Positions 52,338 to 55,841 of a DNA stretch of 64,000 nucleotides are shown here, piece after piece. The DNA lies in contig NZ_FSRK01000002.1 in NCBI RefSeq assembly GCF_900141765.1, positions 434,001 to 498,000 of the forward strand, read 5' to 3'. The stretch is from Epilithonimonas zeae. Its GTDB lineage: Bacteria; Bacteroidota; Bacteroidia; Flavobacteriales; Weeksellaceae. Under the pieces are notes generated by a model that was not told the DNA's origin, searched no databases, and worked only from the letters and a program-made list of their open reading frames with translations. The position numbers and the translations under genes are program-made. Each line of letters starts with the position of its first letter. Within the stretch, counting starts at the first letter, position 1.

Positions 52338-54107
52338 ATGTCAGATATCATTCAACTTTTACCAGACCATGTTGCCAATCAAATTGCTGCAGGAGAAGTC
52401 GTGCAAAGACCAGCTTCTATTGTCAAGGAATTATTGGAGAACTCTGTGGATGCGGGTTCCAGTAAGATTCAGCTCATTATTCGTGATGCGGGGAAAAACT
52501 TGCTTCAGGTTGTTGATAACGGAATTGGAATGTCTGAAACTGACGCCAGATTAGCTTTTGAACGTCACGCAACCTCTAAAATCCGTTCGACGGAAGATAT
52601 TTTTAAAATTGCGACCAAAGGTTTCCGTGGAGAAGCTTTGGCTTCTATTGCTGCAGTTGCTCAGGTAGAACTCAAAACCAAACAGAAAGACGCGCCAGTC
52701 GGAACGAATATTTATATTGAAGGCGGAATTTTCCAGTTTCAAGACCCGATTCAAACCGTTGAAGGTTCCAATTTTTCTGTTAAGAATTTGTTTTACAATG
52801 TTCCTGCGAGACGCAAATTTTTGAAGAATGACAATGTAGAATTTCGTCATATCATCGATGAATTTCAGAGAGTTGTTTTGGCTCACGAGAATATCGAGTT
52901 CGAAATGTTCCATAATGATGAACCTGTCTTCAAACTAAGAAAAGGCGGTCAAATGCAACGCATTATTGATGTTTTCGGGAGAAAGTTGCAACCGCTTTTG
53001 ATTCCAATCAAGGAAGATTTGGGTTGGGCCAATTTGCAAGGTTATGTTGCAAAACCAGAAGGCGCGAAAAAAGTCCGTGGTGAGCAATTTTTCTTTGTCA
53101 ATGGAAGGTATTTCAAAAGTCCTTACTTGAGCAAAGCTGTTCAGGAAGCATTTGATGGATTATTACAACCAGGTTATATTCCTTCATTTTTTCTTTATCT
53201 GGAAATGGATCCGGAGAAAATAGATGTGAATATACATCCACAAAAAACGGAAGTTAAGTTTGAAGACGAAGCTTTGATATTCGCTTTGATGCGGTCTACC
53301 ATCAAACGTTCTTTGGGAATTTATAACGTTGCGCCAAGTCTCGATTTCGAAAGAGATCCAAAAATGGAAGCATTTTTTTCCCCGACGCCAAGCAAAAGCA
53401 ATTACAGTTCGCCAATGCCTTCTTCCATTAATGTGGATAGAGATTTCAATCCATTTTCTGTAGAAAAAACCACGGAAGAAGAAAGGATTAATCTTGCCGA
53501 ATTATATCAGGCAACAGCCACTGCGGCACCTTCCAAAATCAACCTTTTTGAAGATGATGATTTGGACGAAGATCTTTTCCGATTGCCCAACGGTTATTGG
53601 CTTCTGAACAAGGACGGACAAACTTACATGTTGGATTTGGGCAGAATGCATCGTGTGTTGATGTCTTCTCATCAGGAAAATCTGCCGACGAAAAAAGCGG
53701 GGCAAAGTTTGTTGTTTTCGTTAGAATATCATCTGAATGAAATCGAAAAAAACAAATACAAATCCATCAAAAAATATTTGCCGGATTTTGGTTTCGAAAT
53801 GACTTTGGCTCAGGAAAATGTATTGAGAATCGAAACCGTTCCGGAAGCTTTGAAGGAATCTCAGGTTATCAAATTTCTGGAAAAAATATTCGAAGTTTTG
53901 GAATACAGAACCGAGGAAGATTTCTACAAATATTTTGAATACCAATGGGTTAAGCTGAAAACTAAATCAAAATTCGATTTCATTTATAAAACTGAGGTTG
54001 AACAATTGGTAAAAGATTTTATCGACCTTGGTTTCCCACAATACACCGTAAACGGAAAAAAATGTTGGATGGAAGTTCCGTTTGACGATTTTAAAAATAA
54101 ATTTTAA
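52338..54107 (+). CDS. mutL: DNA mismatch repair protein MutL
   Basis: 589 residues. GHKL ATPase domain with ELLENSVDAGS, VVDNGIGM and TKGFRGEALASI, followed by the transducer domain with DVNIHPQKTEVKF near 295. The C-terminal dimerisation domain is present (about 400-589), but the DQHA(x)2E(x)4E endonuclease motif is not; the equivalent position reads DLGRMHRV at residues 433-440, and the CxHGRP zinc motif near the end is replaced by VNGKKCW. It starts an operon with three more genes. Confidence 0.95.
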   Translation: MSDIIQLLPDHVANQIAAGEVVQRPASIVKELLENSVDAGSSKIQLIIRDAGKNLLQVVDNGIGMSETDARLAFERHATSKIRSTEDIFKIATKGFRGEALASIAAVAQVELKTKQKDAPVGTNIYIEGGIFQFQDPIQTVEGSNFSVKNLFYNVPARRKFLKNDNVEFRHIIDEFQRVVLAHENIEFEMFHNDEPVFKLRKGGQMQRIIDVFGRKLQPLLIPIKEDLGWANLQGYVAKPEGAKKVRGEQFFFVNGRYFKSPYLSKAVQEAFDGLLQPGYIPSFFLYLEMDPEKIDVNIHPQKTEVKFEDEALIFALMRSTIKRSLGIYNVAPSLDFERDPKMEAFFSPTPSKSNYSSPMPSSINVDRDFNPFSVEKTTEEERINLAELYQATATAAPSKINLFEDDDLDEDLFRLPNGYWLLNKDGQTYMLDLGRMHRVLMSSHQENLPTKKAGQSLLFSLEYHLNEIEKNKYKSIKKYLPDFGFEMTLAQENVLRIETVPEALKESQVIKFLEKIFEVLEYRTEEDFYKYFEYQWVKLKTKSKFDFIYKTEVEQLVKDFIDLGFPQYTVNGKKCWMEVPFDDFKNKF

Positions 54108-54110
54108 ACT

Positions 54111-54860
54111 ATGTTTCCACAAATAACACCTGTTACCCGAAATATAATCATCCTGAATGTCATCTTTTTTGTAGGTACATTGTTACTTGGGAATTTTAAC
54201 ATCAATGTTGATGCGCTTTTAGCAGGATATTTTCCCTTATCTCCAAACTTCAGGTCTTGGCAAATTATTACGCATATGTTTATGCACGGAAGTATTATGC
54301 ATATTGTTTTTAATATGTTGACGCTTTACAGTTTTGGACCAGTTTTGGAGCAGGTTTTAGGACAAAAAAAATTCATTATTCTATATTTTGCTGCAGGTTT
54401 AGGTGGTTTCGTTTTGTACAATATTTGGAACTATGTTGAAGTAAGTCAAATCACAAATTTTTTAACTAGTCAAGCTTACGATATCCACGAAATTTATAAG
54501 TACGCAGACATTAACTACAGTGGAGAGATGCCAATTTCTTCTAATTCTGAAGCTGTGAGAGACTCTGCTCAAAGTCTTTTTAATATATTGAGAACACCAA
54601 TGGTTGGAGCCTCAGGCGCAATCTTCGGAATCATTGCAGCGTTTTCTACATTATTTCCAGATGCCAAGTTGATGTTTATGTTTATTCCTTTTCCTATTAA
54701 GGCAAAGTATCTAACACCTGTTATTATTGTGGTTTCAATCGTTTTGGGATTTGGACAATTCAGTGGCGATAATATTGCACATTTTGCCCATCTTGGAGGC
54801 GCTTTGATTGGTTTTCTTTACATCAGAAACTGGAAAAAACACCGAGACAGAATCCAATAA
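54111..54860 (+). CDS. Rhomboid family intramembrane serine protease (second)
   Basis: 249 residues, three bases after mutL. Six hydrophobic segments; HGSIMHIVFNMLTLYSFG near 60, the catalytic Ser168 in GASGAIFG and His227 in HLGGALIG. This is the typical bacterial GlpG-like clade, distinct from the first rhomboid at 35496. It contains an extra polar loop (about 115-150). Confidence 0.93.
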   Translation: MFPQITPVTRNIIILNVIFFVGTLLLGNFNINVDALLAGYFPLSPNFRSWQIITHMFMHGSIMHIVFNMLTLYSFGPVLEQVLGQKKFIILYFAAGLGGFVLYNIWNYVEVSQITNFLTSQAYDIHEIYKYADINYSGEMPISSNSEAVRDSAQSLFNILRTPMVGASGAIFGIIAAFSTLFPDAKLMFMFIPFPIKAKYLTPVIIVVSIVLGFGQFSGDNIAHFAHLGGALIGFLYIRNWKKHRDRIQ

Positions 54861-55841
54861 ATGGGAATCATTCGATTAATTTTAACGGTATTTCATCTGA
54901 TAATTATTGCTCTGCTTTTCGGAACAATAATTAATGCTTACATCCCGCCAAATGTTTTGGGGTTTCTTAATCTTTTATCATTAGGATTTCCGATTCTCAT
55001 TATTATTAATATTATTTTATTGATATTCTGGATTATTACTTGGAAAAAAAGAGCGGTGGTTTTTCTTGTTTTATCTTTATTTTTTATCATTCCTACGAGA
55101 CGCTGGATTAATTTCACACCTACGAAAACCGAAACTCCGAATTTGAAATTGATTTCTCTCAATGGGAAATCAGGGAAATTTGGAGACGAAAGCATTTATA
55201 GTTTTCTTAATAGTCAAAATGCTGATGTCGTTCTCACACAAGAATATAGAAGTGCTGAAAATCTTAAAGGCTTTGAATATTTTGAAAGAAATTTTCCCGT
55301 TGTTAAAATCCAGTCAAGATTTCCGATTGTAAAAAGCGGAATTGTAGAAACTGATGCAAAAAACGGACGTTGCATCTATGCTGATATCAGGGTTAATGAA
55401 AAAATTATTCGATTTGTGAATGTTTACATGGAACCTTTTTACTTACAGAAAGATATGGTAAGACCCACTAAAGATATGAATGTGAATGAAGAAAAGGCCA
55501 AGAACATTCTGCACAAACTTGTTCCAACTTTCCGAAAACATCAAAGTCAAATTACTCCAATAAAATCATTTTTGGACAGTTCGCCTTACCCAATTATTCT
55601 TGCCGGAGATTTCAACTCGGTTCCAAATTCTTATGAATATTACACCTTATCTGAAAATCTGGAAGACACATTTCTAAAAGTCGGAAAAGGAAGCGGAACA
55701 AGTTTCCACGATTTCAAATTTCCTCTGAAAATCGACCACGTTTTCGCATCAGAATCCATCGAGCCTATCAGTTATAAAGTAGACAGAAGTGTCAGAATCT
55801 CAGACCATTTTCCTGTGATTGCTGAATTTTATATCAAATAA
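54861..55841 (+). CDS. Endonuclease/exonuclease/phosphatase-family membrane protein
   Basis: 326 residues, starting at the base after the second rhomboid's stop. Three N-terminal hydrophobic segments (about 5-85) are followed by an EEP-fold domain (about 95-326) with LKLISLNGKSG, VVLTQEYRS, LAGDFNSVPNS and DHVFASESIEP plus SDHFPVIAEF. The first three motifs supply the usual Asn, Glu and Asp-x-Asn metal ligands. The substrate may be a phospholipid or nucleic acid. It is in the mutL operon. Confidence 0.88.
   Translation: MGIIRLILTVFHLIIIALLFGTIINAYIPPNVLGFLNLLSLGFPILIIINIILLIFWIITWKKRAVVFLVLSLFFIIPTRRWINFTPTKTETPNLKLISLNGKSGKFGDESIYSFLNSQNADVVLTQEYRSAENLKGFEYFERNFPVVKIQSRFPIVKSGIVETDAKNGRCIYADIRVNEKIIRFVNVYMEPFYLQKDMVRPTKDMNVNEEKAKNILHKLVPTFRKHQSQITPIKSFLDSSPYPIILAGDFNSVPNSYEYYTLSENLEDTFLKVGKGSGTSFHDFKFPLKIDHVFASESIEPISYKVDRSVRISDHFPVIAEFYIK

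Follow-up and report, generated by a model that had tools for sequence, protein, structure and literature searches.

A MutL without its endonuclease site in Epilithonimonas zeae and in nearly all sampled Bacteroidia

Introduction

How does a bacterium begin mismatch repair when its MutL seems to have lost the site that nicks DNA and no MutH is at hand? The question is raised by the mutL gene of Epilithonimonas zeae, which lies in the 64,000-nucleotide stretch of DNA analyzed here (the window). In bacteria without MutH, nicking activity resides in MutL, according to the accessible text of PMC2965676. An initial annotation, made from the letters of the window, held that the DQHAxxExxxxE motif was gone and the CxHGRP element lost while the ATPase was intact, and that repair would consequently need another nuclease or be inactive.

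Results

The window MutL keeps the MutL domains and lacks the metal site

The features of the locus are listed in Table 1. The open reading frame matches TIGR00585 (mutl) at 442 bits (E 3.9e-132), and it has both parts expected of the MutL family, a GHKL ATPase with transducer and intact motifs (TIGR00585, PF13589, PF01119) and a C-terminal domain (CTD) of MutL fold (PF08676, Foldseek). ENSVDAG, DNGIGM and TKGFRGEAL, which we take to be the ATPase motifs, are present in the N-terminal domain. The PF08676 (MutL_C) match of the CTD is weak (32 bits vs a cut-off of 25), and its AlphaFold2 prediction (pLDDT 84.1, pTM 0.56) has as top Foldseek match 3gab_B, the B. subtilis MutL CTD (E 1.4e-7, TM 0.59, 14% identity); all 21 PDB matches at E ≤ 0.001 carry titles of MutL/MLH structures or a mismatch repair complex. 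A search of the own genome for a second MutL returned a single DNA_mis_repair match.

Table 1. Features of the mutL locus, in window coordinates
Feature	Position	Strand	Description
mutL	52338..54107	+	589 aa, ATG start; the only MutL homolog found in the genome
N-terminal ATPase/transducer domain, residues 1-330	52338..53327	+	HATPase_c_3 (PF13589) and DNA_mis_repair (PF01119) matches; motifs intact
C-terminal dimerization domain (CTD), residues 408-589	53559..54104	+	MutL fold kept, metal site lost
Old DQHA(X)2E(X)4E site, residues 433-444	53634..53669	+	reads DLGRMHRVLMSS
Old beta-clamp motif (Q-x-x-L-F-P type elsewhere in the class), residues 456-461	53703..53720	+	now QSLLFS
Lys539, at the Cys column of the ACR motif	53952..53954	+	Lys/Arg there in 69/71 family MutLs
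Old CPHGRP site, residues 570-575	54045..54062	+	reads TVNGKK
Rhomboid protease gene	54111..54860	+	PF01694, 112.6 bits; conserved mutL neighbor in many Bacteroidia
Membrane EEP-fold (endonuclease/exonuclease/phosphatase) protein gene	54861..55841	+	PF03372, 49.6 bits

MutL endonucleases bind zinc through, among others, the CPHGRP residues Cys and His. The other ligands, His and Glu of DQHAxxE, are zinc contacts in B. subtilis MutL (PMC2965676, accessible text), and the Arg of CPHGRP is described as catalytic and the first Asp of DQHA as critical for the nuclease in the available part of PMC10366529. Aligned with its relatives, the window MutL has DLGRMHRVLMSS at the endonuclease helix vs the canonical DQHAAHERILYE; DQHA(X)2E(X)4E, the ACR Cys and CPHGRP are all missing, and of the metal-site residues it retains the Asp alone. 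The motif reading of the initial annotation is thus borne out, including the intact ATPase; it had left out the ACR motif, whose Cys column holds a Lys here.

The missing motifs are not due to an alignment slip: when the final 90 residues of 72 family rows, including one duplicate, were scanned for C-x-H-G without alignment, no match turned up. The altered motifs are common to all 13 same-genus MutLs, the window included, with at most one substitution, and this agreement, together with a median CTD dN/dS of 0.015, rules out a pseudogene or sequencing error.

The site is absent throughout the family and from almost all of the class

Family and class are used here as GTDB groups, the window's family being coded f1. 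MutL was found in 118 of 120 family genomes, the two others being incomplete, and 71 of the 118 were read after one copy (L001, identical to L002) was dropped. For the class, MutL was found in 157 of 158 sampled genomes and missing from one; 70 were read, six of which were already among those read earlier. A phylum sample of 128 genomes contributed 70 MutLs, 80 loci came from named genomes (including Flavobacterium, Pedobacter, Mucilaginibacter, Prolixibacter, Algoriphagus and Saprospiraceae), and the MutLs of Bacteroides finegoldii, Parabacteroides distasonis and a Prevotella were added from records filed as plasmids. With six duplicates dropped, the resulting table holds 285 distinct sequences: 71 from the family, 176 from the class outside it and 38 from other classes of the phylum.

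Among the 71 family MutLs, none retains the Glu of DQHAxxE or either of the CPHGRP ligands, Cys and His. In 57 of the 71 none of the positions H3, E7, C and H is retained, the CPHGRP Arg position is non-Arg in 65, and Asp1 persists in 70. Three forms of the old helix occur: DQ/NQ-(H/N)-RAHQ (n = 16), DPYRIHQ (n = 4) and D-[LPM]-[GS]-R (n = 51), the last being the window's group. Two identity groups had suggested a loss confined to part of the family; we rejected this, as other genera also lack the site. Nor do relatives keep DQHA at a shifted position, which the initial annotation had raised: the ligands counted above are absent from every family MutL read, and the alignment-free search came back empty.

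Of the 247 distinct Bacteroidia MutLs, 245 are without the Cys-His pair of CPHGRP. All four positions H3, E7, C and H are retained in 2/176 class MutLs outside the family, 0/71 in the family and 21/38 in other classes of the phylum. The two exceptions among the 247 (L307 and L308) both belong to family f63; a third f63 genome (G310, L325) was read apart and stands outside the 247, and f63 retains DQHAAHERILYE, ACR and CPHGRP in all three genomes read. Outside f63, remnants of CPHGRP in Bacteroidia consist of the Cys alone in L228 and L230 and the His alone in L229. Part of the site persists outside the window's family, with Asp1 in 126/176, Glu7 in 110/176 and Glu12 in 162/176. The loss that the initial annotation had described for this one protein is therefore real, and its scale was drawn too narrowly, for it appears ancestral to almost the entire class.

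The ACR Cys tracks the other motifs, being present in 21/21 canonical vs 0/17 non-canonical rows of other classes. In the class it is found in 2/176 MutLs outside the family and in 0/71 within it, and its column holds Lys or Arg in 137/176 and 69/71, respectively. A basic residue at a former metal ligand is what a metal-free site might be expected to favor.

Seventeen of the 38 other-class MutLs are without the full site (L117, L120, L127-L133, L137, L139, L143-L147 and L152). Some have intermediate forms, such as DQNAAHER with CPQGRP in L133 and SPTGRP in L117, which possibly represent a stepwise series. Database records label the MutLs of Bacteroides (L248, 1501-3402) and Parabacteroides (L249, 1501-3348) "DNA mismatch repair endonuclease MutL" despite the missing metal site, a name that is misleading for site-less Bacteroidia MutLs.

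Trees point to an old loss

We built a 51-row tree from the N-terminal domain, so that the trait's own columns were excluded, with hand-picked rows and the long branch L286 omitted. In this tree the 29 Bacteroidia without the site group together (SH-aLRT 91, not starred), and their clade unites with f63, its sister, at SH-aLRT 95.6. A 126-row tree with 54 open forks places f63 in one of these, basal in the class, and by parsimony the phylum needs at least six state changes; other classes therefore seem, on these sequences, to have lost the site separately. These patterns are best accounted for by one ancient loss, dating from after f63 had branched off, and by deeper erosion in the window's group. 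Alternatively, f63 may have gained its site horizontally.

The CTD remains under selection and is further remodeled in the window's group

QxxLxP motifs bind the clamp. In the class outside the window's family, 160 of the 176 MutLs retain Q-x-x-L-[FYLI]-P despite the dead site; because the clamp activates the MutL nuclease in other bacteria, this retention counts against the view that the nuclease is dead. In the family, Q-x-x-L-[FY]-P occurs in 19 of the 20 MutLs of the other two forms and in 0/51 of the window's group, where the Pro has become Ser in all 51.

Median dN/dS among the 13 same-genus MutLs was 0.023 for the ATPase domain (NTD), 0.062 for the linker and 0.015 for the CTD, values that are rough, with within-genus dS near saturation (medians 1.25–1.38), and that come from pairs with 0.05 < dS < 2 (64/78, 39/78 and 47/78 retained, respectively). 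In the window's group, 29 positions of the CTD do not vary over 23 genera; Asp433 and Arg436, which lie within the old site, are among them. By these measures the dead CTD is under strong purifying selection, and, judging from the alignments, it is further remodeled in the window's group, with an altered clamp motif and an invariant residue set that lies partly at the old site.

Repair partners are present and repair is probably active

Of the two genes that the initial annotation had proposed looking for, mutS is present in the own genome (MutS1 at G000:C2:401098-403647, 888 bits vs a cut-off of 641.7) and mutH is not, a search with PF02976 giving 0 matches, which sets the genome apart from MutSLH. 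MutS1 scores above cut-off in 116 of 120 family genomes; in the class it was matched in 59 of 60 genomes (G269 being without a match) and was above cut-off in 56. The own genome also has one RecJ match and two UvrD-family matches, so excision could proceed given an end.

NCBI taxonomy places Elizabethkingia in the class Flavobacteriia, family Weeksellaceae, and E. anophelis presumably belongs to the window's family. The accessible text of PMC5458099 describes an E. anophelis outbreak isolate with a mutS nonsense mutation as a hypermutator; the strain is also mutY-disrupted, and the authors regard its spectrum as that expected of mutS deficiency. This case, which concerns MutS and not MutL itself, and the strong purifying selection on the CTD make it probable that mismatch repair is active.

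No substitute nuclease emerges from the genes searched

PF02976 (MutH) matches are rare, occurring in 4/120 family genomes and 10/247 class genomes, and ten of these 14 have open frames of 453–514 aa. Five of the MutH-like proteins (L075, L236, L240, L241 and L242) match a PADLOC type II restriction enzyme model, four at 264–346 bits and the shorter L242 at 195. Six further ones were judged by size (open frames of 455–485 aa) and by a second, weaker MutH stretch; the matches outside this checked set are frames of 213 aa in G340 and 203 aa in G407 and a match with two stops in G291. Rarity and the restriction enzyme scores of the five checked proteins led us to reject MutH as the substitute. 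Scattered in Bacteroidia (L072-L079, L236-L247) are large proteins that carry a MutH-like stretch once or twice; we take them to resemble Sau3AI.

NucS_C (PF01939) matched 14 of 158 class genomes, 11 of them above cut-off, with a best score of 48 bits and mostly over part of the model, and gave no match in the own genome. This distribution is too patchy for NucS/EndoMS to be a class-wide substitute. MutL itself has no added domain, at lengths of 536–608 aa in the family and 561–682 aa in other Bacteroidia.

Of the 80 named mutL loci, 43 contain a homolog of the EEP protein, as do 33 of the 40 family loci. By hydropathy estimate, the window protein and 28 of 34 homologs have three N-terminal hydrophobic segments and the other six have two; in 14 homologs inspected by eye, the loop leading into the third segment carries basic residues, which would place the catalytic domain outside. 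The protein is thus probably membrane-anchored and faces outward, into the periplasm, to go by the hydropathy estimate, and on these grounds we rejected it as the missing nuclease.

The neighborhood of mutL is itself conserved. A rhomboid homolog is present in 77 of the 80 named Bacteroidia loci (L156-L235) and 39 of the 40 family loci (L032-L071), and in 0/3 f63 and 0/17 other-class loci (mostly ∼4–5 kb each side). The membrane EEP protein often joins rhomboid and mutL, as in the window (52338-55841). Bacteroides finegoldii has other mutL neighbors, OstA-like and OmpA.

Discussion

As judged from sequence, the nicking site is missing from nearly all sampled Bacteroidia and MutH does not stand in its place. 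The window MutL resembles the MutL endonucleases of B. subtilis, Neisseria and Aquifex in its ATPase domain, linker, CTD fold (3gab, 3kdk and 3ncv are among the best Foldseek matches) and MutS partner, but differs from them in lacking all three motifs (DQHAX2EX4E, ACR and CPHGRP). E. coli MutL has no endonuclease motif either. It is likewise a nuclease-free matchmaker, and its CTD (1x9z) also matches the window model; however, the window genome has no MutH, and the Bacteroidia loss lies in another phylum. Yeast Mlh2 is a further MutL homolog without the nuclease motif, and human PMS1 is another (accessible text of PMC2965676). PMS1 and Mlh2 act beside nuclease-bearing paralogs, whereas the sole MutL found in the window genome appears to be nuclease-free. 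Nuclease-free MutLs as such are already known, but in the company of MutH or of a nuclease-bearing paralog; in the open-licence literature, as far as our partial coverage of it reaches, we found no description of a class-wide nuclease-free MutL with neither.

With the endonuclease motif lost, a single MutL and no MutH, another source of strand ends seems to be needed. To this extent the initial annotation is supported. As the best explanation of the whole, to which we give a little better than an even chance, the site-less MutL would serve as a clamp and matchmaker, with excision running from ends that are already present. MutS would recognize the mismatch and load MutL; driven by ATP, MutL would play the clamp and matchmaker part known from E. 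coli MutL and would recruit exonucleases and a UvrD-type helicase. Least certain is where excision enters and what marks the strand: both would be provided by existing ends in new DNA, such as Okazaki nicks, the growing 3' end or nicks from ribonucleotide excision. E. coli repair needs no MutH on nicked DNA, and with replication ends a dedicated nicking enzyme would be unnecessary. Against this reading, the Asp1, Glu7 and Glu12 retained outside the window's family could reflect residual or different metal binding.

Excision may instead start at a nick made by a further nuclease, possibly one gained at the time of site loss. We consider it unlikely, though by no means negligible, that a nuclease gained or recruited in the Bacteroidia ancestor nicks on the command of MutS and MutL, as MutH does in E. 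coli. Since MutH-less bacteria nick via MutL (PMC2965676, as far as accessible), lineages with neither might need a substitute, and the residues invariant over 23 genera are what a docking surface would show; yet MutH is not the enzyme, NucS_C is unsystematic, MutL carries no extra domain and the EEP protein beside mutL probably faces the periplasm.

It is improbable that the remodeled site has kept nicking activity by way of different residues or a different metal. The near-universal Asp1 of the family, the residue of DQHA given as critical in the available part of PMC10366529, and the invariant residues at the old site would suit such a cryptic nuclease, but 57 of 71 family MutLs keep none of H3, E7, C and H, the ACR Cys has given way to a basic residue in 69, as would be expected without metal, and the Arg that the same source describes as catalytic is replaced in 65. 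Least probable of all, to the point that we give it very little credence, is that repair is inactive and MutL is being lost or is kept for another task only. The clamp-motif Pro gone from all 51 MutLs of the window's group speaks for it, whereas the low CTD dN/dS, the retention of MutS1 in most genomes (59/60 matched in the class) and the mutS-mutant hypermutator of E. anophelis (PMC5458099, in its accessible text) speak against it, and with it against the inactivity that the initial annotation had entertained.

On the sequences compared here, Bacteroidia probably start mismatch repair in an as yet undescribed way. Going beyond the reading that we favor, we put forward tentatively, at rather less than an even chance, a third form of MutS-MutL repair in almost all Bacteroidia, one with no nicking MutL, MutH or other nick-maker, which would use replication ends only, held in register by the nuclease-free MutL clamp. 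The usual rule that MutH-less bacteria nick via MutL, as stated in the accessible text of PMC2965676, is seemingly broken by a major class that keeps both MutS and MutL, a class whose sequences include those of Bacteroides, Prevotella and Flavobacterium and which comprises many gut bacteria. These bacteria would offer a natural system in which to study a long-standing question, namely how cells recognize the new strand without methylation or MutL nicking, with f63, where the site is retained, as a ready natural control.
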